Of a stretch of 64,000 nucleotides of DNA, positions 5,677 through 17,521 are shown in pieces. This DNA comes from Chloroflexi bacterium bin125 (GTDB lineage Bacteria > Chloroflexota > Dehalococcoidia > Bin125): assembly GCA_002239025.1 (NCBI GenBank), contig MPNM01000011.1, positions 40,023-104,022 on the forward strand, read 5' to 3'. Made by a program: the position numbers and the translations under genes. The notes under the pieces are model-generated. The model saw only the letters and a program-made list of their open reading frames with translations. It searched no databases and had not been told where the DNA came from. Positions within the stretch are counted from its first letter, which is position 1. The number at the start of each line of letters is the position of its first letter.

Positions 5677-6150
5677 CTATTCGTTTTCGGGTCGGATCAG
5701 GGTGACCGTGCGGTTGACGTAGCTGAGCTCGAACTCTCCTGGTCTGATGGCGTCTCGACCGAAGAGCGAAGGAACGAGCCAGTTGCCTTCTTCTGATCGA
5801 TAGTCCGGCAGGGGCTCAGCAATCCAAATGCGCTGTGCTAACTCAATCGGACTGTCAGTGTCATCAGTGAGCACTAGGGTGGCTTCGAGTGGAGTCATGT
5901 AGATCTCTCGCTCCCCAATGCCCTGGAGAGGGACACTCTCCGGATGGGAACGAAAATCCATCTCGAAGTAGTGATCGTCAAACACCCAATGCGCATCTTC
6001 GGGCATCAGAATCGTCGCGTCCGAGCCAGTGTCGATCATGAAATCGACGCTGTACGACGCGGCATCGTAGGTTAGGCGCACTCCGACGAAGGGCGCGCCA
6101 TCATCGGGATCGTTCGACTCGGCTCCCAGCCAGCCATGAACTCGCCTCAT
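5677..6150 (-). CDS. Retropepsin-like aspartyl protease domain protein
   Basis: VDFMIDTGSDATIL active-site motif, GIGERE, IAEPLP...WLVPSLFGRD; ATG at 6150 overlaps upstream TGA (6147-6149). Confidence 0.75.
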   Translation of the reverse strand: MRRVHGWLGAESNDPDDGAPFVGVRLTYDAASYSVDFMIDTGSDATILMPEDAHWVFDDHYFEMDFRSHPESVPLQGIGEREIYMTPLEATLVLTDDTDSPIELAQRIWIAEPLPDYRSEEGNWLVPSLFGRDAIRPGEFELSYVNRTVTLIRPENE

Positions 6151-6488
6151 GTTGCGCGTCGGCGAAACGCGCTGGTAATGCGGTGGGTGTTGGGTTTGGG
6201 TGGCGGGGGCCACCTAAAGGCAGTTGACCTGTTGAGCCCATCGAGTTGAAACAAGTGGTTGAAGTGTGACTGTGCGTCCTCGTGCGCCACGACCGTCTGG
6301 CCGCCGTCGTAGATCGCGATCCAGTGTCTCGGATATTGATCGCGGATGCTCTTCCAATCACGCTGCCATCGCTCGCGATTACGCCGCCCTTCGGCGAGAG
6401 CCTCTTTGATGGCTGCCTCTTGGAGCTGATTTGGCTCTTCCGGCCTCGGTTTTGATTCAGTCGTCATCGTCTTCCTCCCGACCTCCAT
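6147..6488 (-). CDS. Small DUF5678-like protein, coupled to the retropepsin-like gene
   Basis: RDQYPRHWIAIYDGGQTVVAHEDAQSHFNHLFQLD; same-strand ATGA overlap with 5677..6150. Confidence 0.65.
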   Translation of the reverse strand: MEVGRKTMTTESKPRPEEPNQLQEAAIKEALAEGRRNRERWQRDWKSIRDQYPRHWIAIYDGGQTVVAHEDAQSHFNHLFQLDGLNRSTAFRWPPPPKPNTHRITSAFRRRAT

Positions 6489-6563
6489 TCTACCGAACCG
6501 ACTGCCCGTTCCTGGCTGACGATCCGCTATCTTTGACCTCGCACTGGATAGCTCGCGAGAGCG

Positions 6564-8444
6564 TTGATGAAGGGAACGATCATGGCACTTGGTGGATTTG
6601 CTGACCGCGTGGCGCGGATTAATCTGACCGACCGGACGGTCTCGTATGAGGGCGTCAATGAAGACGACGCGCGAAAGTACATCGGCGCTCGCGGGCTGGG
6701 TGTGAAGTACCTGCTCGATAACGGTCCGAATACCGACGCAATGTCTCCGGACAACATGCTGGCCCTGGTCAACGGGCCAATGACCGGTTCAGAGGTGACG
6801 ATGTCGGGACGCCTCGCGTTCGTGACCAAGTCGCCATTGACCGGCACAGTGACCGACTCGCACATGGGCGGTTGGTCAGCGGCTCGGCTACGTTGGGCCG
6901 GCTTTGATGCGCTGCTGATCACGGGCAAAGCCGACTCGCCCGTCTATCTCGAAGTCGAGAATGGTGAGGTCGCGATCAAGGATGCCTCCGACATCTGGGG
7001 AATGGGCATCCACGACACGGTCAAGCACTTCGGCTCGGACAGCGGCAACAAGACGAACACGTCGGTGATGAGCATTGGCCAGGCCGGCGAGAACGGTGTG
7101 CTGTTTGCCTCGTTCCTGAACGAGGACGACCGGGCCGCCGGACGTGGCGGCACCGGCGCAGTGGCCGGGATGAAGAATCTGAAGTGCGTGGTCGTGCACG
7201 GCACGCGCGACGGTCGCTGGCGACCCGAGCAGGGCGAAGCGCGGCAGAAGTTCCGCGCGGCACAGGGCGCTCACCTGAAGCTGATCATGGAGTCGCCGGT
7301 GACGGCGCCGTCCTCGGTCAACGACGATGGATCGCTCAAGGATGGTTCGGGCGCGCTCTCGGCATTCGGGACCAACGTGCTGATGAACGCGGTCAACTCG
7401 ATCGGCGGTCTGGGCACCAAGAACTCGCAGACGACGCAGACGACCCCTGAGGCGGCAGATGCGGTCTCGGGCGAGACGATGCGTTCGGACTACCTTACGG
7501 CCGAGCCCACCTGTCACGCCTGTCCGGTGGCTTGCAAGAAGGAAGTTGAGATCATCGAGGGCGTCCACGCCGGCCTGAAGATGGAATCGTTCGAGTACGA
7601 GCCGGCCTGGTCGCTGGGCGCGAACTGCGGCAACGACGATCCGGCCGTGATCGCCAAGGTCATTGACCAGTGCAACGACTTCGGCATGGACGCGATCGAG
7701 ATCGGCAACGCGATTTCGATGTACATGGAAGCGTCCGAGCGCGGCTACGTCGACACGCCGCTCGACTGGGGCGACGGCGCGGGCATGGTCCGCGTGGCAG
7801 AAGAGATGGCGATGGGTTCGACCGGGATTGGCCGGACGCTGGGCGAAGGTCCGGCGCGCGCAGCGGCTGCCTGGGGACACCCGGAGATTTCGATGACCGT
7901 CAAAGGCCAGGCCGTGCCTGCCTACGACCCGCGCGGCGTCAAGGGCGAGGGTCTGGGCTACGCGACTTCGAACCGCGGCGCTTGCCACCTGCGTGGATAC
8001 ACGCCGGCGTCTGAGCTGCTCGGTATCCCCGTCAAGACCGACCCACTGGAGTGGGACGGCAAGGGTCCACTGCTGAAGATCTTCCAGGATCTGCACGCGT
8101 TCTCGGACTCTCTCGACCTGTGCAAGTTCTCGGCATTCGCTGTTGGCGCTCCGGAGTACGCGGCGCTCTATGAGACGGTCGTCGGCCTGCCGATGTCCGA
8201 GGAAGATGTGATGACCGCCGGTGAGCGGATCTACAACCTCGAGCGTTTCTACAACAACCAGGCGGGGTTCGGCGGCGACGAGGACTCGCTGCCCGATCGC
8301 TTCCTCAACGAGCCGGCGACCGGTCCGGCCGAGGGTCACGTCTGCGAACTCGACCAGATGAAAGAGCAGTACTACGACGCTCGCGGCTGGGACAACGGCG
8401 TAGTGGGCGAGTCCAAGCTGCGCGAGCTCGAGATCATCTCGTAG
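6564..8444 (+). CDS. Aldehyde:ferredoxin oxidoreductase family protein
   Basis: RVARINLTDRTVSYE...YIGARGLGVKYLLDNG, GRLAFVTKSPLTGTVTDSHMGG, CHACPVACKKE and YATSNRGACHLRGYTP. Confidence 0.95.
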   Translation: MMKGTIMALGGFADRVARINLTDRTVSYEGVNEDDARKYIGARGLGVKYLLDNGPNTDAMSPDNMLALVNGPMTGSEVTMSGRLAFVTKSPLTGTVTDSHMGGWSAARLRWAGFDALLITGKADSPVYLEVENGEVAIKDASDIWGMGIHDTVKHFGSDSGNKTNTSVMSIGQAGENGVLFASFLNEDDRAAGRGGTGAVAGMKNLKCVVVHGTRDGRWRPEQGEARQKFRAAQGAHLKLIMESPVTAPSSVNDDGSLKDGSGALSAFGTNVLMNAVNSIGGLGTKNSQTTQTTPEAADAVSGETMRSDYLTAEPTCHACPVACKKEVEIIEGVHAGLKMESFEYEPAWSLGANCGNDDPAVIAKVIDQCNDFGMDAIEIGNAISMYMEASERGYVDTPLDWGDGAGMVRVAEEMAMGSTGIGRTLGEGPARAAAAWGHPEISMTVKGQAVPAYDPRGVKGEGLGYATSNRGACHLRGYTPASELLGIPVKTDPLEWDGKGPLLKIFQDLHAFSDSLDLCKFSAFAVGAPEYAALYETVVGLPMSEEDVMTAGERIYNLERFYNNQAGFGGDEDSLPDRFLNEPATGPAEGHVCELDQMKEQYYDARGWDNGVVGESKLRELEIIS

Positions 8445-8457
8445 CATCCCTCTGAGA

Positions 8458-8575
8458 AGGACCCTCACCCTCACCCTCTCCCAGAGGGAGAGGGGACCGA
8501 AACACTTCTTGCGAAGGGGATGGGCCCGTTCTTTGCACTCCCTCTCCCTCGGGGAGAGGGCTGGGGTGAGGGGTC
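8458..8575. repeat. Dispersed palindromic repeat CCTCTCCC..GGGAGAGG type
   Basis: CCCTCACCCTCACCCTCTCCCAGAGGGAGAGGGG ... CCCTCTCCCTCGGGGAGAGGGCTGGGGTGAGGGG. Confidence 0.75.
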
Positions 8576-8583
8576 GCACAGTT

Positions 8584-8856
8584 ATGCAGATCCGCTTCTA
8601 CGCAACGCTGCGACCGCTTGTTGGTGGTCGCAGCGTTGATTTGTCTGATCCGCCGGACACGATCAAGGGCATTCTTGAACGGCTCGCTTGCGAGTACGAG
8701 GGGTTGCACGATCAGCTCTTCGACGAGGATGGCACGGTGCGCCGGTTCGTCGCGATCATGGTCGACGGCCGCGACATCCGACATATCGACGGTCTCGATA
8801 GCCGGGTCAATCCCGAAAGCGAACTGGACATCTTCCCACCCGTCGCTGGCGGCTGA
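8584..8856 (+). CDS. MoaD/ThiS-family sulfur carrier protein
   Basis: MQIRFYATLRPLVGGRSVDL...ILERLACEYEGL...IMVDGRDIRHIDGLDSRVNPESELDIFPPVAGG; C-terminal GG; directly downstream of AFOR. Confidence 0.9.
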   Translation: MQIRFYATLRPLVGGRSVDLSDPPDTIKGILERLACEYEGLHDQLFDEDGTVRRFVAIMVDGRDIRHIDGLDSRVNPESELDIFPPVAGG

Positions 8857-8888
8857 GCGCTAGCAACCTGCATACCCTTGTAGGTGTA

Positions 8889-9299
8889 ATGAGGTTCAGA
8901 CGTTCGAGCGCCTTCTCCGTTCCATCGTGGCCTCAAAATCTCCACGTTGCCCTGTTGGGCTTCGTTGTTGCGGGCATGCTGGTTGCGATTGTTGGCGCTG
9001 TTTCCTTGCAGCTCCCAGATGCTATTCCTGAGGGCGTTCGCGAGGACGCTATTGCTGGTGGTGCTGCCCGCGGACGATACCTGGCCGAGCTGGAGGCACG
9101 ACAGTCCGCCGTGGAAGCGGCCCCTCGCCTGGCCGAGGATGAGCTCGAAGCTCAACTCTCCGGCGGCGACGCCGACGATGGCTACCGACGGGCGTACGAG
9201 TATGCCTGGAACGATGCGGTCAACACGCTCGCACGGGGCCTGCCCCGACAACTGCTCGCCGAGGAAGAGCACACGCAGTGGATTGAGCTGCTGCGATGA
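8889..9299 (+). CDS. Small single-TM protein, type A paralog (A1)
   Basis: One predicted N-terminal TM (LHVALLGFVVAGMLVAIVGAVSL) then DDGYRRAYEYAWNDAVNTLARG...TQWIELLR; TGA overlaps next ATG. Confidence 0.75.
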   Translation: MRFRRSSAFSVPSWPQNLHVALLGFVVAGMLVAIVGAVSLQLPDAIPEGVREDAIAGGAARGRYLAELEARQSAVEAAPRLAEDELEAQLSGGDADDGYRRAYEYAWNDAVNTLARGLPRQLLAEEEHTQWIELLR

Positions 9300-9781
9300 C
9301 CACAGAAACGTCGCAGCCTTCTCCTCCCTACGGACCTCGAGAACCCATGAGGCTGGGTCGGCGGCTGCCGCCGCCGGAACGCATTCGACCGAATCTGACC
9401 TGGTTCCTGATTGGCACGGTCATAGCCATCATCCTTGGCTGGCTCGTGATTGCGGTCATTGGAGAGACAGTTGTGTCCCAGGAACGGCAGATCGACGAGA
9501 TTCGCTACGAGGCACTGGAGTCGACCTTCAATGCGGCCATTGAAGATGCCGTTCGTGATGCCAGGGAAGAATTCATCACGCTCGAGATTGCGAGGATTCT
9601 GTCCGACCAACAAGTTGCCGCCGAGTCGGATTGGGCAAATGGGTTTCGCGCGGGGTGGTCGGATGGCTGGAATGATGCGCTCGACGCGATGCGTGCTGCT
9701 TCGATTGATGCCGGAGCCACCGAGGATTCATTGGAGTTGCAGACGCTCAACGCAGCCCCGGAGCGTCAGGCGAAGCCGTAA
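9296..9781 (+). CDS. Small single-TM protein, type B paralog (B1)
   Basis: TM LTWFLIGTVIAIILGWLVIAVIG then NGFRAGWSDGWNDALDAMRAAS; ATGA overlap with A1. Confidence 0.75.
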   Translation: MTTETSQPSPPYGPREPMRLGRRLPPPERIRPNLTWFLIGTVIAIILGWLVIAVIGETVVSQERQIDEIRYEALESTFNAAIEDAVRDAREEFITLEIARILSDQQVAAESDWANGFRAGWSDGWNDALDAMRAASIDAGATEDSLELQTLNAAPERQAKP

Positions 9782-9825
9782 AGAAACTCGTCGATTGAGA
9801 GGCCCCCGCTGGATACGCTGACTCA

Positions 9826-10221
9826 ATGTCTATCGTTCGGACCTGGTGGCGCTACGACTTGCCTCGTCAAGTCCTGCTTGCGTTTCTGGTCGCGCTGGCG
9901 GTGACGGCGGCGATTGGTTGGCTGATCTCGGTGCTTGACCAGGTCACCGCGGAAGAAATTGCCTCAGCGGAGGTGCGTGGGACGCGGGAGGGGCGAATCG
10001 ATGGCTATGAGGCAGCGTTTGAGCGAGGACGGCTCGACGGCGCTGGTCGTGCCGCGCTGGCGCTGCCGGAACTGCTCGCGTCAGGGGATCCTTTGGAGGG
10101 ACACCAAACCGCGTATGACTACTCCTGGAACGATGCCATCGACACGGCGCTGAACGAGGCCAAGCGCAACAAACTAGAGGTCGAGTCGGCGTTTGAGTCC
10201 TGGGAAGACCTCCGCCGATGA
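9826..10221 (+). CDS. Small single-TM protein, type A paralog (A2)
   Basis: TM VLLAFLVALAVTAAIGWLISVL then EGHQTAYDYSWNDAIDTALNEA. Confidence 0.75.
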   Translation: MSIVRTWWRYDLPRQVLLAFLVALAVTAAIGWLISVLDQVTAEEIASAEVRGTREGRIDGYEAAFERGRLDGAGRAALALPELLASGDPLEGHQTAYDYSWNDAIDTALNEAKRNKLEVESAFESWEDLRR

Positions 10222-10679
10222 CGGACCGACGTGGATCACTGGAAGGCTGGGGTAAGGGCGAGCGAGAGCGTGTCTGGTGGAAACGCGGCTACGACCCGAT
10301 TGGCCGGCACACGATGGTCGCGGTCGTGCTCGGCGTTGCGATGGCGGCGCTGATCGGTGCGACGCTTGATCCGATGAATCTGCGCACTTCAGATGATCTC
10401 AAGCGAGCCGAGCTGGCGGCCTATGAGGAGGCCTACGCGGCGGTCGAAGCGGAGGGCTATGCCGATGGGTTGCCCTACGGCGAAGTGCAGCATCTGGGAG
10501 CAGAGATCGTCAACGACGGAACAGAGGTTGATGACTCCGCCTACGCACAGCAATTCGCGACAGGTTGGATTCAGGGCTGGAACGACGCCCTGGATGCCAT
10601 GCGGGTTGCCGCCGAAGAACTGAGCCTGCCCGCCAACTACACTGAGTTCCGGGTTCTGGGGGAGATGACCCGGAGGTAG
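10218..10679 (+). CDS. Small single-TM protein, type B paralog (B2)
   Basis: TM MVAVVLGVAMAALIGATL then QQFATGWIQGWNDALDAMRVAA; ATGA overlap with A2. Confidence 0.75.
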   Translation: MTDRRGSLEGWGKGERERVWWKRGYDPIGRHTMVAVVLGVAMAALIGATLDPMNLRTSDDLKRAELAAYEEAYAAVEAEGYADGLPYGEVQHLGAEIVNDGTEVDDSAYAQQFATGWIQGWNDALDAMRVAAEELSLPANYTEFRVLGEMTRR

Positions 10680-10694
10680 GCGGTCAGAGAGCCG

Positions 10695-11102
10695 ATGAAG
10701 CGCTTCAGAAGGCTCTGGCGGATCGATCTGGTACGACACTCGGCGGTTGCGTTCCTCGTCGGTGCGGTGCTTTCGACGGTAGTAGTGGTCGGCGCGTTCG
10801 CACTGGATCAGGGATCGCGAGGGGAGCTGGCGTATCAGGGACTTGGCGAGTCGCCGTCCGAAAACGATGCTGGCAATCGAAGTGCAGCGATCACGGGAGG
10901 GACTAGACAGGGGAGATTGCTGGGGCGGATGGAGGCTGAACATGCGTTGGAAGAATTGCTCGCTAGCCGAAACGAGCGATCGGGCTATCAAACAGGATAT
11001 CTACAGGGCTGGAATCTGTTGATCCTCGATTCGTCGAATGAGGCGATTCTGCAGCTCCGGTCGGCGGCTGACGGCACTCAGTGGATCGAGTTGCTCAAAT
11101 GA
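10695..11102 (+). CDS. Small single-TM protein, type A paralog (A3)
   Basis: TM SAVAFLVGAVLSTVVVVGAFAL then SGYQTGYLQGWNLLILDSSNE...TQWIELLK. Confidence 0.75.
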   Translation: MKRFRRLWRIDLVRHSAVAFLVGAVLSTVVVVGAFALDQGSRGELAYQGLGESPSENDAGNRSAAITGGTRQGRLLGRMEAEHALEELLASRNERSGYQTGYLQGWNLLILDSSNEAILQLRSAADGTQWIELLK

Positions 11103-11569
11103 GCCGTCGCACGCCGCGGTTGAGCGGGTGGTCGCGTCCCGGTACCGCCGAGTCGGGCTGGCGTCGAAAGCGCGACTTGTCGGGTCCTCACACAATCGTG
11201 AGCGTGCTGCTGGGCGTAGCTGTTCCCGTCTTGATTGCCTTCCTGAGCGGAGCCATCAAGCTGAACGACCGGGTACCGGATCTGCGCAATGATCCCGTCA
11301 AGTTGGAGGAACGGTACAGCGACGTATGGGCTGAGGCGATGGAGCGCGAGAATTCGCGGGCGTATGCTGAGCGCCTGGGTGAACTGCTGATTGACGAAGG
11401 TTTGGGCGGCGAACAACCTTGGGCGGTCGGATTCCGCGCAGGTTGGGTCGCCGGACGGCAAGACGCAGCGACAGCGATGCGCGAAGCAGCGGTGGAACAG
11501 CAGTTAGGCGAACAGCGTATCGAATGGATCGTGCTAAACAGGATTGATCCTCTAGGAGCGCAGCGGTAA
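11099..11569 (+). CDS. Small single-TM protein, type B paralog (B3)
   Basis: TM TIVSVLLGVAVPVLIAFLSG then VGFRAGWVAGRQDAATAMREAA; start trimmed to ATG 11099, ATGA overlap with A3. Confidence 0.7.
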   Translation: MSRRTPRLSGWSRPGTAESGWRRKRDLSGPHTIVSVLLGVAVPVLIAFLSGAIKLNDRVPDLRNDPVKLEERYSDVWAEAMERENSRAYAERLGELLIDEGLGGEQPWAVGFRAGWVAGRQDAATAMREAAVEQQLGEQRIEWIVLNRIDPLGAQR

Positions 11570-11600
11570 CGCTCGACCAGTTGCGACATACTCTGAGATC

Positions 11601-13073
11601 ATGACTCGGATACTGATCCTTGGCGCGAGTGGATATGTAGGTGGGCACCTGGCTCCCAGGTTGGCCTCGGAGGGATTTGCAGTTCGCGCTGCCGCACGTC
11701 GCATTGATGCGCTGCGGGCTCGCGGCTGGGAAGGTGTTGAGACGGTCCGGGCCGATGCGTTGGATCCTGACTCAATGCGCGAGGTTCTGGAAGGCGTTGA
11801 CATCGCCTACTACCTCGTCCACTCGATGGCGTCGGCAGGCGACTTCACTGAGTTGGACCGCCGTGCGGCGACCAACTTTCGCGATGCTGCAGCAGAGGCC
11901 GGACTGAAGCGGATTGTCTACCTGGGCGGGATTCAACCGTCTAGCGGCGCATCGGTGCATCTCGCGTCCCGGCTTGAAACCGGCGACATCCTACGTAGCG
12001 GCTCGACACCGGTGACCGAGCTGCGCGCCGGGATCGTGGTCGGTCCCGGCTCGGCCGCGTTTGAGGTGATCCGCGACCTTGTCTATCACTTGCCGCTGAT
12101 GCTGGCGCCTCGCTGGGTGGGCTCTCGCAGCCAGCCGATCGCGCTCGATGACCTGCTTGACTATCTCGTGGGGTTGTTGCAGATAGACGGCGATGAAGCA
12201 TCGCATGTCTACGACGCGGTCGGGCCTGAGACGCTGAGTTATGGCGATCTGCTACGGCAGTTTGGCGAGGTGGTCGGCAGGAAGGTTCGGATTGTTCCGT
12301 TGCCGGTGCTCACTCCGAGGCTGTCGTCCTATTGGCTGGACTTCGTCACCGCGGTGCCGGCACGGATTGCTCGACCGCTGATCGATGGTCTCAAGCATGA
12401 CCTGATTTCGGAGCGCCCGGACGAACTGCGCGAACTCATTCCGATCAAGCAGCGTTCATACGCAGAGGCGGTGCGGCATGCGCTGGAGGAGGAACGATCG
12501 GCATCGCTGACTGTCCGCTGGACGGAGGGTGGGTTTCGCTACCGACGCCAGCGGCATGATGTGTCCTGGTACGACAAGTCCGTCCGTGTCGCGCTTCCCA
12601 CCGGCCGTTCCGCGACCGAGGTCTGGGGCGACATCAGTTCAATCGGTGGCGAGCGGGGCTGGTACTTCGCGACCTGGCTGTGGAAGGTGCGTGGGGCGAT
12701 TGATCGGTTGTTGGGTGGTGTCGGGATGCGCCGTGGGCGTCGCCATCCGACCGAACTGCGCGTCGGCGATGCGCTCGACTTCTGGCGTGTGGAGGCAGTC
12801 GAACCGGGACGCAGCCTGACGCTGGTCGCCGAGATGAAGTTGCCGGGCTCGGCGGTGCTGGAGTTGTCGGTGGCGCAGGCCGGCGACGGCGCAGTGGCCA
12901 AGCTCCAGGCGCACTTCCATCCGGCCGGTACCTGGGGACTGCTCTACTGGTACGTCCTCTGGCCGGTTCACATGGTCATGTTCAGGAGGCTCGCCGAGGC
13001 GCTGGCGAACGGTGTCAGGCACCGCGCAGGCGCGGGTCGAGGACATCGCGCAAGGCGTCGCCCAGCAGGTTGA
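11601..13073 (+). CDS. NAD(P)-binding (NmrA/SDR-like) protein with C-terminal DUF2867-like domain
   Basis: MTRILILGASGYVGGHLAPRLASEG Rossmann motif; C-terminal SVRVALPTGRSATEVWGDISSIGGERGWYFATWLWKVRGAIDRLLGG. Confidence 0.85.
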   Translation: MTRILILGASGYVGGHLAPRLASEGFAVRAAARRIDALRARGWEGVETVRADALDPDSMREVLEGVDIAYYLVHSMASAGDFTELDRRAATNFRDAAAEAGLKRIVYLGGIQPSSGASVHLASRLETGDILRSGSTPVTELRAGIVVGPGSAAFEVIRDLVYHLPLMLAPRWVGSRSQPIALDDLLDYLVGLLQIDGDEASHVYDAVGPETLSYGDLLRQFGEVVGRKVRIVPLPVLTPRLSSYWLDFVTAVPARIARPLIDGLKHDLISERPDELRELIPIKQRSYAEAVRHALEEERSASLTVRWTEGGFRYRRQRHDVSWYDKSVRVALPTGRSATEVWGDISSIGGERGWYFATWLWKVRGAIDRLLGGVGMRRGRRHPTELRVGDALDFWRVEAVEPGRSLTLVAEMKLPGSAVLELSVAQAGDGAVAKLQAHFHPAGTWGLLYWYVLWPVHMVMFRRLAEALANGVRHRAGAGRGHRARRRPAG

Positions 13074-13995
13074 AGCCCAGCACGATCATCATGATCGCGC
13101 CGCCGGCAAAGACGGTCTGCCAGGGATGCAGGTCGAGCGAGCCGCGACCAGCCTGGACCATCTTGCCCCAGCTCGCGACGCCCTGTGGTCCAGCGCCGAG
13201 GAATGAGATTGCCGCCTCGGCGAGGATGTAGGCTCCGATGCCGATGCTGAAGGCGATGATGAGCACCGCCACGACATTGGGCAGCACGTGTCGCACCATG
13301 ATCCTGAGATCGCTCGCGCCAACGACGCGGGCGGCGAGCACGAATTCGCTCTCGCGCACGGCGAAGACGGCTGATCGGATCAGTCGTGTGGTAATCGCAA
13401 GTCCGGCAATTCCGAGCCATAAGACGACATAACTCACTTTCGGCTCGGAGATCTGCGTAAAGACGAGCACCAGCACTAAGAAGGGGATCGCCTGGAGCAT
13501 GTCGACGATGCGCTGAATCAGGAGATCCAGGATCCCTGCGTAGTAGGCAGAGATCATCCCGATGACGAGTCCACCGATCACGGCGATCACCGACGCGCCG
13601 AGTCCCACAATCAGGCTGAGTCGTGCGCCATGGATGACCTGCGACCAGATGTCGCGGCCGAACTTGTCCGTGCCGAACCAGTGCTTGCCGGACGGCTCGG
13701 CGAACTGCTCGACAACCACAGGCGAACCGATGTCGGGATTGCGGGCGAGCTCGAGGGTTGTCGGATTGGCTTTGTAGTCGGGGTTCGGCGAGTCGAAAAT
13801 CTGGTCCTGGTCGTGGCGCTGAATCTGATTGGCGAAAATCGCGATCAGGATGAAAGCGACCGCAATGATCAGGCCGATGCCACCGAGCGGCTTGCCGCGG
13901 ATGAAACGAAGCACGCTACGCAGACCGGAACCAAGCCTGATTAGCAGGTTGGGGTCGCCCTCGGGAACGATGACCTCGCCGCGTGCTTCAGTCAC
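13015..13995 (-). CDS. Peptide/opine-type ABC transporter permease (DppC/OppC family)
   Basis: GTDKFGRDIWSQVIHGARLSLIVGLGASVIAVIGG; EAAISFLGAGPQGVASWGKMV; multi-TM. Confidence 0.9.
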   Translation of the reverse strand: MTEARGEVIVPEGDPNLLIRLGSGLRSVLRFIRGKPLGGIGLIIAVAFILIAIFANQIQRHDQDQIFDSPNPDYKANPTTLELARNPDIGSPVVVEQFAEPSGKHWFGTDKFGRDIWSQVIHGARLSLIVGLGASVIAVIGGLVIGMISAYYAGILDLLIQRIVDMLQAIPFLVLVLVFTQISEPKVSYVVLWLGIAGLAITTRLIRSAVFAVRESEFVLAARVVGASDLRIMVRHVLPNVVAVLIIAFSIGIGAYILAEAAISFLGAGPQGVASWGKMVQAGRGSLDLHPWQTVFAGGAIMMIVLGFNLLGDALRDVLDPRLRGA

Positions 13996-15087: not shown

Positions 15088-17085
15088 TCAGAGCGGCACC
15101 GGAGCCGTCGGCTGGCGACCTTCGGCTGACGGATCGTCGAGGTCGACCCACTGCTCAACAGAGTTCAGGCTGTAGGGCAGGAAGTTCCAACCCTCTTCGG
15201 GACTGGACAACTGCGGATGGTTGTAGTTGTAGCGGATGGCCGGGTAGATGTAGTTGTAACAGATGCTGCGCCCGAACTGGCCGCGCTCCATCACGTACTC
15301 CTGGACTTCCCGAACCATCTGGTAGGCGGTCTCGTAGTCGAGTTCCTGCTTGGCCGCATTCAACGTGTCGTCGATGTACGGATCCGAGATCTCCCAGTAG
15401 TTCGAGCCGGCGTCGGTAGTGAATGCACCGATCATGTCGGCCCGCGCATCGGGGATTTCGATGTTCGGAATCCAACTGAAGAACGGATCGAAGTCCTTGG
15501 CGATCCAGGACGGGATGATTTCCAGGTACGGCTTGGTGATTCCGTTGAACTGGTCGGTGTCGAATGCCTGGTTGAACATCTCGGCAACGATGCCTGGCGT
15601 TGCCGACCAGGCGGAGCGAGAAGCCCAGAGCTCGGACGTGACCCAGTCGATCTGGCCGAGCTCGGGGCCGCCGGCGGCGTTCCACAGTGCTCGCGCTTCC
15701 TCGATGTCCTGTTCTTTATCGATCCGGTAGCCGGGGAACGTCTCGAGGTCTTCCTGTGGAATGGCCCAGGCTTCCTGCATCCAGGTGACCGGACCGGAGA
15801 CTTTGCCCAGACCGTTGTGCAGCTGCTGGATCAACTGGCGCCGGTTGATGGCCAGGTCGATGGCTCGCGTCAGGCGCAAGTCGTTCCACGGCGCCTTGTT
15901 CGACGGTGTGAAGATCGCCACGGTGTTGGCGACGCCCTGGAAGGTGAGATATGTCTCATCCTGCAGGCTGTCGTGGATCGCGAGGGTCGTGTTCGGGTCC
16001 GGGTCGCTCATGAAGTCGACCTGCTTCTGCTCGAACGCGATCCGGTACGCATTGGGATCCTGGAATGTCTGCACCCAGACCCTGGCGTCGAGATACGGCT
16101 TGTCGGGCAGCGCGTAGAAGTTCGGGTTCTTGACTGCCGAGATGCCCTCGCCCGGATCCCACCGGGTGAGAATGTACGGGCCGGTGCCGATGACCTTGGA
16201 GGCGTCGACTTCCGTGTACTGGTCCTCGGTGCCGCCGACGAGCTCCGGCTGGTTCATCAGGTTGAACTCGTTGGCTAGACCCTGGACAAAGGTTGCGTCC
16301 GCCTCGGTCAGATTCAACGTGAGGCTGACGTCGTCATAGTCCATCGAGCCGACGCCGCCCCAGTAGGCGCTGCGGCCGAAGTTGCTGGCTTCCTCGCCGT
16401 TCTCGAGTACCTTGTTGCGCTGTCGATCGATGTTCCAGGCGATGTCGGCAGGCGTCAACGCGCGACCGGGCGCGGCCGACGGATGGTCGGCGCCGGGGCC
16501 GGCGTCGTGCCAGTTCACACCGCCACGCAAGTGCAAGACGATCGTGGTCGCGTCGGGCAGTTCCCATCCTTCTGCGAGGTCGCCGGTGAGGACACCGGTG
16601 TTGGGGTTCTCGAAGCGCAGCAGCTTCGACTGCACGTTGGCAAGGACCTGGAGTACCGGCGATGCGACTGTCCGCTGCGCGTCGTAGGTCTCGTAGACGT
16701 TGGCCGACTGCTCGATGATCGAGCCACCGTACTTCTTGCCCTCGGAGACCATGGCCTGCTGTTGCGCAGCCTGTTGCTCGGCCTGTTCCTGGGTCGACTG
16801 TTCCTGGGCCTGCTGCTGCATCGCCTGCTGCTGGGCCTGCTGATGCTGGTCCTGCTGCATGGCCTGCTGCTGCTGTTGCTGCATGGCCTGGTCTTGGGCC
16901 TGCTGCTGCATGGCCTGTTGCTGCTGCTGAACCTGAGCGACCGACTGACCGTCGTCATCGTCGTCGCCACAACCCACCAGGGCCAAACCGGCTGCGCCAA
17001 CTCCGGCGCGAGCCGAGGCGCTCAGAATGCCGCGCCGGCTCATCCGTTTCCGACTCATCCGTTGCCAATAGGAACGCTCGCTCAT
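15088..17085 (-). CDS. ABC transporter substrate-binding lipoprotein (peptide type) with Gln-rich N-terminal linker
   Basis: SRRGILSASARAGVGAAGLALVGCGDDDD lipobox/Tat-like leader; SBP_bac_5 features (ADDLAEGWELPDATTIVLHLRGGVNWHD; LTRAIDLAINRRQLIQQ); start trimmed to MSERSYW. Confidence 0.9.
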   Translation of the reverse strand: MSERSYWQRMSRKRMSRRGILSASARAGVGAAGLALVGCGDDDDDGQSVAQVQQQQQAMQQQAQDQAMQQQQQQAMQQDQHQQAQQQAMQQQAQEQSTQEQAEQQAAQQQAMVSEGKKYGGSIIEQSANVYETYDAQRTVASPVLQVLANVQSKLLRFENPNTGVLTGDLAEGWELPDATTIVLHLRGGVNWHDAGPGADHPSAAPGRALTPADIAWNIDRQRNKVLENGEEASNFGRSAYWGGVGSMDYDDVSLTLNLTEADATFVQGLANEFNLMNQPELVGGTEDQYTEVDASKVIGTGPYILTRWDPGEGISAVKNPNFYALPDKPYLDARVWVQTFQDPNAYRIAFEQKQVDFMSDPDPNTTLAIHDSLQDETYLTFQGVANTVAIFTPSNKAPWNDLRLTRAIDLAINRRQLIQQLHNGLGKVSGPVTWMQEAWAIPQEDLETFPGYRIDKEQDIEEARALWNAAGGPELGQIDWVTSELWASRSAWSATPGIVAEMFNQAFDTDQFNGITKPYLEIIPSWIAKDFDPFFSWIPNIEIPDARADMIGAFTTDAGSNYWEISDPYIDDTLNAAKQELDYETAYQMVREVQEYVMERGQFGRSICYNYIYPAIRYNYNHPQLSSPEEGWNFLPYSLNSVEQWVDLDDPSAEGRQPTAPVPL
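16751..16936 (-). repeat. CAG/CAA-rich low-complexity tract encoding about 62-aa Gln/Ala/Met linker
   Basis: Translated QVQQQQQAMQQQAQDQAMQQQQQQAMQQDQHQQAQQQAMQQQAQEQSTQEQAEQQAAQQQAM. Confidence 0.9.
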
Positions 17086-17182
17086 GCTTTCCTCCAGAAC
17101 TGTGGCCCCGCGACCGCGGGTGGTGTTGCCCATGAAGCGCAACGATACAGCAAAACGAGATAATGTAACGCAGTTATCACGG

Positions 17183-17521
17183 ATGTCCGAAGGGATTCTT
17201 CCAATGTCGCGAGCAGTCAGGGAGCTCACGCTGCGCGCCATGCCTATCTGGTTGCTGCGCCAGTACCTGGAACAGCTCGGAGCGTCGGACGTGGAGCCGC
17301 CGTCGCCTGGCGCGACCGATCCCGACGGTGTGGTGCAGCCCGACGGCTCAATGTCGGGCGACGGCTGGTCGGTGCTCTGGCGGACCGAGCAGCGCTCGAT
17401 GCACCCGCAACTGCCGACCAAGATGGACGAGCACTACTTCGTCTTTACGGCAGGATCGGAGGAGGCGATGGAGTCGCTGATCGAACGCTTCATGATGAAA
17501 GCCCATCGCGGCGGGGGCTGA
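17183..17521 (+). CDS. Hypothetical protein (112 aa)
   Basis: MSEGILPMSRAVRELTLRAMPIWLLRQYLEQLGASDVEP...DGWSVLWRTEQR...ESLIERFMMKAH; upstream ATG region overlaps the divergent SBP start. Confidence 0.55.
   Translation: MSEGILPMSRAVRELTLRAMPIWLLRQYLEQLGASDVEPPSPGATDPDGVVQPDGSMSGDGWSVLWRTEQRSMHPQLPTKMDEHYFVFTAGSEEAMESLIERFMMKAHRGGG

Follow-up and report, generated by a model that had tools for sequence, protein, structure and literature searches.

Six consecutive genes downstream of a tungsten aldehyde ferredoxin oxidoreductase (AFOR) gene encode an undescribed family of small membrane proteins, laid out as three A-B pairs, in a genome from a poorly studied Dehalococcoidia lineage. The window, i.e., the whole stretch of DNA analyzed, spans 64,000 nucleotides (G000:C29:40023-104022) of a 3.68-Mb assembly in 66 contigs. 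We read the pairs as lineage-specific, membrane-anchored structural units with a scaffold role, in which A2B2 would be the core and the remaining pairs accessory, and we give this account as a whole a probability of about 50%. Conserved residues stand out clearly in the family, its pairing rule is strict, and its co-inherited natural duplicates are well suited to testing how a single gene gives rise to a two-gene complex and how partner specificity diverges.

Table 1. The A/B array, its neighbors, and predicted promoter elements (window coordinates)
Feature	Position	Strand	Remarks
AFOR, tungsten aldehyde ferredoxin oxidoreductase, upstream neighbor	6582..8444	+	Pfam AFOR_N/AFOR_C
MoaD/ThiS-family sulfur carrier, GG end	8584..8856	+	Pfam ThiS E 1.3e-13; adjoins AFOR in relatives
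A1, 136 aa, bitopic membrane protein, type 1	8889..9299	+	Orthologues in 5 further same-genus genomes, plus type-1 A of G017
B1, 161 aa, bitopic membrane protein, type 1	9296..9781	+	Start overlaps A1 stop
Predicted leaderless-promoter -10 element TACGCT	9814..9819	+	6 nt 5' of A2 start
A2, 131 aa, core type	9826..10221	+	Within-genus orthologues 73-80% identical
B2, 153 aa, core type	10218..10679	+	Start overlaps A2 stop
A3, 135 aa, type 3	10695..11102	+	Type 3 elsewhere in G005 and, diverged, in G011
B3, 156 aa, type 3, without WN motif	11099..11569	+	Start overlaps A3 stop
Predicted leaderless-promoter -10 element TACTCT	11589..11594	+	6 nt 5' of SDR start
SDR (NAD(P)-binding) + DUF2867 protein, downstream neighbor	11601..13073	+	Pfam; presence variable

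The positions that a first-pass annotation of this DNA had given for the six same-strand open reading frames (ORFs) matched ours exactly, and the ATGA overlaps at the A-B junctions (9296, 10218, and 11099) and the short B-to-A gaps (44 and 15 nt) were confirmed. B3 is 156 aa long when read from the ATGA start; a length of 162 aa is obtained only with an upstream GTG. The closest solved relative of the window AFOR was WOR83 of Haloferax volcanii (9q1t, E 9.6e-200). The SDR gene was not found in G007, G008, G012, and G017, all of which carry A/B genes, and an Rfam scan of positions 6000-13500 returned no RNA family. Near the array, DTG[SA]D-motif proteins, like retropepsin-type aspartic proteases, are encoded at 5677-6213 of the window (without a Pfam match at E 0.01) and at L055:4068-5018. 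The gene at 15088-17421 codes for a solute-binding protein of the oligopeptide type (SBP_bac_5), in which a long poly-Q-rich stretch follows the N-terminal region.

The six ORFs are real genes under purifying selection. Protein searches detected orthologues in all 14 other genomes of the genus and in one of the five other family genomes searched, that of a sister genus (G017), bringing the carriers to 16 genomes with 29 pairs. The genomes that carry names are MAGs, and several bin names look like those of sponge metagenomes. Surveying the neighborhoods, we found A ahead of B in 29/29 pairs and the 4-base stop/start overlap at 28 of the 29 junctions (only the first pair of G010 departs from it), so the coupled unit in fixed A-B order proposed earlier is borne out. 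Three pairs were present in G000, G004, G010, and G014, two in G006, G009, G011, G013, and G017, and one in the remaining seven genomes, including G012, whose contig starts just 5' of A and whose number is therefore a minimum. The copy number is not fixed at three, since relatives carry one to three pairs and scars of loss. Median dN/dS values (Nei-Gojobori) were 0.11 for A2, 0.17 for B2, 0.23 for A1, 0.28 for B1, 0.22 to 0.24 for A4 and B4, and 0.25 to 0.27 for type 3 (one comparison); these ratios are approximate because the synonymous distances are high (medians of about 1.0 to 1.9). Chance ORFs, which would be absent from relatives or show dN/dS near 1, are excluded by the orthologues, the conserved overlap, and medians below 0.3 throughout.

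Although the first-pass annotation had treated A and B as two separate protein types, profiles built from the 29 A and the 29 B sequences matched each other in hhalign (97%, E 4e-11) over the membrane segment, the hairpin, and the motif, which rules out that the two are unrelated. In the genome searches, the A profile also picked up B genes and vice versa (best E 5e-10). A and B are thus distant homologues that go back to an ancient duplication of one protein. The A and B distance matrices correlated at r=0.97 (5000 permutations reached 0.42 at most), a value to which the kinship of linked genes contributes, and the A tree and the B tree resolved the same types 1, 2, 3, and 4; both observations support the suggested duplication of the pair as a unit. 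The three pairs, described earlier as a tandem triplication, are old and diverged types. Within the window, identity to A2 was 24% for A1 and 31% for A3, and identity to B2 was 21% for B1 and 31% for B3. Alongside its type-2 pair, the sister-genus genome G017 has a type-1 A, which dates at least the split between types 1 and 2 to before the genus. With this split and with 21-31% identity between types, a recent triplication is ruled out. At least five pair types occur across the genus. Pair 2 is the core. Type 2 is nearly universal and conserved, whereas types 1, 3, and 4 are patchy and evolve faster.

The WNDA motif described as common to all six proteins was found in four of them only; A3 has WNLL and B3 has RQDA (GRQDA). 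Among the 29 A sequences, W101, N102, W126, and L129 (A2 numbering) are invariant, while in the 29 B sequences the invariant residues besides M1 are G116, G120, A124, E143, and L147 (B2 numbering) and do not include WN. The TQWIELL tail noted for A1 and A3 held, as TQW[IV]EL, in all type-1 and type-3 A proteins but did not extend to types 2 and 4, which end in W-E/D-x-L (e.g., AWEALRR and YWESLRR), so that the A tail is best described in general as W-x-x-L. No Cys or His is conserved among the 29 A and 29 B sequences; most members have no Cys at all, and none has more than one.

One dominant hydrophobic segment was present in 58/58 proteins, in agreement with the single segment seen earlier in each of the six, and the flank on its N-terminal side was more positive than the following 30 residues in every case (means of +2.5 versus -3.8). 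From this hydropathy and charge pattern, the N-terminus is predicted to lie in the cytoplasm and the C-terminus outside. Past this segment, small residues (G, A, S) recur at every fourth position. Their longest run at a spacing of 4 averaged 7.4 in A against 3.2 in shuffled sequences and 4.2 against 3.4 in B (mean z of 3.3 and 2.0, respectively), the stripes being weaker in B. In separate AF2 runs, A2 (helices 3-37, 42-86, 89-114, and 119-130; pLDDT 70.8, pTM 0.30) and B2 (helices 27-49, 58-99, 108-134, and 142-149; pLDDT 73.6, pTM 0.39) gave the same order of membrane helix, long helix, second long helix, and short C-terminal helix; model confidence is moderate and pTM low, so these models can be trusted for secondary structure but not for helix packing. 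In both models the second long helix carries the WN or GWxxGWN motif. Fold searches of the PDB and BFVD gave no significant match.

Positions -12 to -7 of A2 read TACGCT or TAGGCT in 13/13 orthologues, with five of the six bases invariant, while the upstream columns -40 to -17 were just 21 to 50% identical in pairwise comparisons. A TANNNT element about 12 bp 5' of the start codon is a signature of leaderless genes, which make up a few percent of genes in some Chloroflexi (PMC3160421). Its background frequency in the window was 0.0017 per position. The element was absent from 29/29 B starts and from every MoaD start tested, and it was found 5' of seven of the nine placeable SDR starts (spacing 6) and four of the seven type-1 A starts (spacing 7). 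A2B2 is thus probably a leaderless transcription unit of its own, and the same is predicted for SDR; for the type 3 pair we infer reliance on read-through, and read-through from AFOR into the array is possible. Of the single-strand setting described earlier, the neighbors AFOR, MoaD, and SDR-DUF2867 were confirmed, but the stretch is not simply one operon, given the predicted promoters at A2 and SDR and the existence of AFOR-MoaD without A/B elsewhere.

From these features we infer that A contacts B and that the pair acts as a scaffold. Each protein would be anchored by its N-terminal membrane helix with the N-terminus in the cytoplasm, placing a two-helix hairpin and a short C-terminal helix outside the cytoplasmic membrane. 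The small-residue stripes would pack the A hairpin on the B hairpin, giving a four-helix bundle or a larger assembly, although they could instead pack within one hairpin or serve homomeric assembly. The products would be membrane-tethered scaffolds of 1:1 composition; the lack of any conserved Cys or His, together with an invariant set made up of G, A, W, N, L, and E, speaks against enzymes or electron carriers. Such a scaffold may serve the cell envelope, transport, or the adjacent aldehyde-oxidizing enzyme. The core complex would be A2B2, under its own leaderless promoter, and pairs 1, 3, 4, and 5 would be divergent accessory pairs that recombination next to AFOR-MoaD has added and removed. 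A bolder form of this account, fairly unlikely in our judgment, has one duplicated ancestor giving rise to a genus-specific repertoire of orthogonal membrane-anchored A:B heterodimers on the membrane's outer face, each protein assembling with its own partner only; a constant core pair with the leaderless promoter would combine with exchangeable accessory pairs into strain-specific outward complexes.

The insertion site bears on the link to AFOR. Sister lineages show the gene order AFOR-MoaD-P90; the last of these encodes a protein of about 90 residues with a GGG end and no Pfam match (L106:1380-1649, L107:8871-9143, and L108:1652-2206). P90 is fused to MoaD in G015 and, judged by ORF length, probably also in G339 and G211. 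The window has a P90 homologue at 17204-17521, 8.3 kb from MoaD, with the A/B array, SDR, and an opposite-strand ABC transporter in between, and in G001 the homologue lies immediately after SDR. The array thus splits genes that are adjacent elsewhere. No A/B genes were found at the orthologous AFOR-MoaD loci of G015, G018, and G019 or at 20 further AFOR loci examined in class members, some of which end at contig ends. AFOR-MoaD thus exists in sister lineages without A/B, which makes the array an insertion specific to this lineage and not a required AFOR subunit.

A and B might still be a membrane anchor or accessory module of AFOR, holding the enzyme or its ferredoxin traffic at the membrane through conserved cytoplasmic N-tails, which we regard as unlikely, though better placed than the other rivals. 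The pairs follow AFOR-MoaD in all 15 genomes with an assembled junction and, within the family, occur only in genomes that have this AFOR; the membrane-adjacent RGxDPIGRHTMVA tail is among the best-conserved parts of B2. The enzyme nonetheless works without A/B, as the loci lacking the pairs indicate, A2 has its own predicted promoter, and the bulk of A/B is predicted outside, whereas AFOR is inside. Moreover, clade-83 WORs, among which WOR83 falls by its name, are described as single-subunit Class I enzymes, a characterized member being monomeric (PMC13328260). The link to AFOR is weakened both by this description and by the AFOR orthologues that occur without A/B. Were A/B to act with AFOR, a tungsten enzyme type described as single-subunit would gain a membrane partner.

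Traces of turnover were seen in two arrays. In G003 (L050:727-1233), A4 carries an in-frame TAG and its 3' part runs directly into the B4 end, the junction being a shared CTGG-ACG-GGCG stretch that codes for the W-x-x-A motif, while A4B4 is intact in G004; the scar reads as a deletion between the motif copies of A and B. In G010 (L057:8797-8973), a 144-bp MoaD fragment, 92% identical, lies between the first and second pairs and reads as a mark left by an insertion or duplication that took in the MoaD end. These being draft genomes, there is room for an assembly error behind both scars. G010 also has a 407-aa AIPR-family gene (Pfam PF10592, E 1.5e-17; L057:5664-6887) between B2 and SDR. Copies of a dispersed intergenic repeat, 75% identical over 97 bp and oppositely oriented, lie in a 913-bp gap inside the G014 array (L061:6979-7892) and downstream of SDR in G001 (L048:8514-8965), and the repeat is possibly a mobile or REP-like element.

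Such turnover would suit a variable outward-facing repertoire for recognition, exclusion, or compatibility, in which each pair has one specificity and variety itself is selected. The presence of one to three pairs of at least five types in one genus, the patchy and faster-evolving types 1, 3, and 4, both scars, and the predicted outward topology all fit. They are set against a type 2 that is nearly universal and conserved, dN/dS within types well below 1, and the lack of matches to PADLOC models (A proteins), phages, viral contigs, and plasmids, and we rate selection for variety as improbable, next in order after the AFOR module. More doubtful again is an ordinary envelope structural pair that was inserted by chance beside AFOR-MoaD and has no functional link to its neighbors. 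The promoter motif of A2, the parting of MoaD from a P90 that is adjacent or fused elsewhere, and an SDR that can be missing agree with such an accident, yet wherever the junction is assembled the position is the same, in both genera and although pairs have been gained and lost.

Searches for relatives outside the carriers and in reference collections returned little. Profile searches of 396 class genomes and 399 phylum genomes yielded marginal matches only and no further credible homologue; in the collections searched, A/B is restricted to two genera. Once translated, the class-level matches proved to be AhpD-like proteins, low-complexity frames, or generic transmembrane (TM) proteins, and those at the phylum level covered the N-terminal/TM part only. 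One match in G019 (L127, E 2e-4) combines a TM segment, a GX3 helix, and a GxxxGxxDA tail, and it is near chance given the roughly 400 genomes searched. Weak A-profile matches carrying stop codons were found in G006, G013, and G001. The earlier remark that no described family was recognized for the six proteins stands: nothing exceeded the cut-off in Pfam or NCBIfam, and the PDB gave neither a family nor a fold match. Against Pfam, the 29 A and 29 B relatives produced scattered weak matches only, and B members matched PHROGs weakly. A members matched no PADLOC model, and the phage, viral contig, and plasmid searches found nothing, so an origin from such elements was rejected for the sets searched. 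A toxin-antitoxin or bacteriocin-immunity type of pair with one membrane-active partner, to which small overlapping two-gene units with a membrane segment and in variable number would point, appears very improbable, because A and B are homologues of the same architecture, the pair occupies a fixed site and belongs to the core of the genus, and neither a defense library (for A) nor mobile elements gave a match.

We favor, then, the reading of A/B as membrane-anchored structural pairs, and we compared them with four known systems. FliH/YscL proteins have long AxxxG(xxxG)mxxxA-like runs, with a small residue at every fourth position, in predicted helices that are likely to dimerize (PMC2674601). 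A proteins likewise have runs of five to nine small residues at a spacing of 4 in predicted helices, but the FliH profile scored E 0.053 and 12.6 bits against a cut-off of 293, so they fall outside the FliH family; A/B also has a membrane helix and is predicted to face outward. The resemblance is one of packing motif and not of homology. GX3 repeats recall the deca-GX3 family Yae1_N (PF09811; best E 0.0014), which only two of the 29 A members match, below the curated level. Yae1_N proteins are known as soluble and eukaryotic, whereas A/B has a TM helix. The WXG100/ESX proteins (e.g., EsxR, 3h6p) comprise two homologous small helical-hairpin proteins that pair and are encoded in tandem; A and B are likewise homologues with tandem genes, and a profile match to EsxR was weak (E 0.056). 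WXG100 proteins are secreted and have no TM helix; A/B has one in every member, lacks WXG in the turn, and has no PDB fold match. The Class V membrane-associated tungsten oxidoreductases, too, have a tungsten-type enzyme gene adjoining membrane-protein genes, but this class is limited to clade 41 and is defined by a WorS subunit with a Tat signal or TM segments (PMC13328260). With neither a conserved Cys nor a match to any family, A/B does not qualify as a redox subunit (Fe-S, flavin, or other) of the WorS, WorN, or WorA-C kind. A/B is a new protein family of a familiar sort, that of lineage-specific, tandemly duplicated small membrane proteins.
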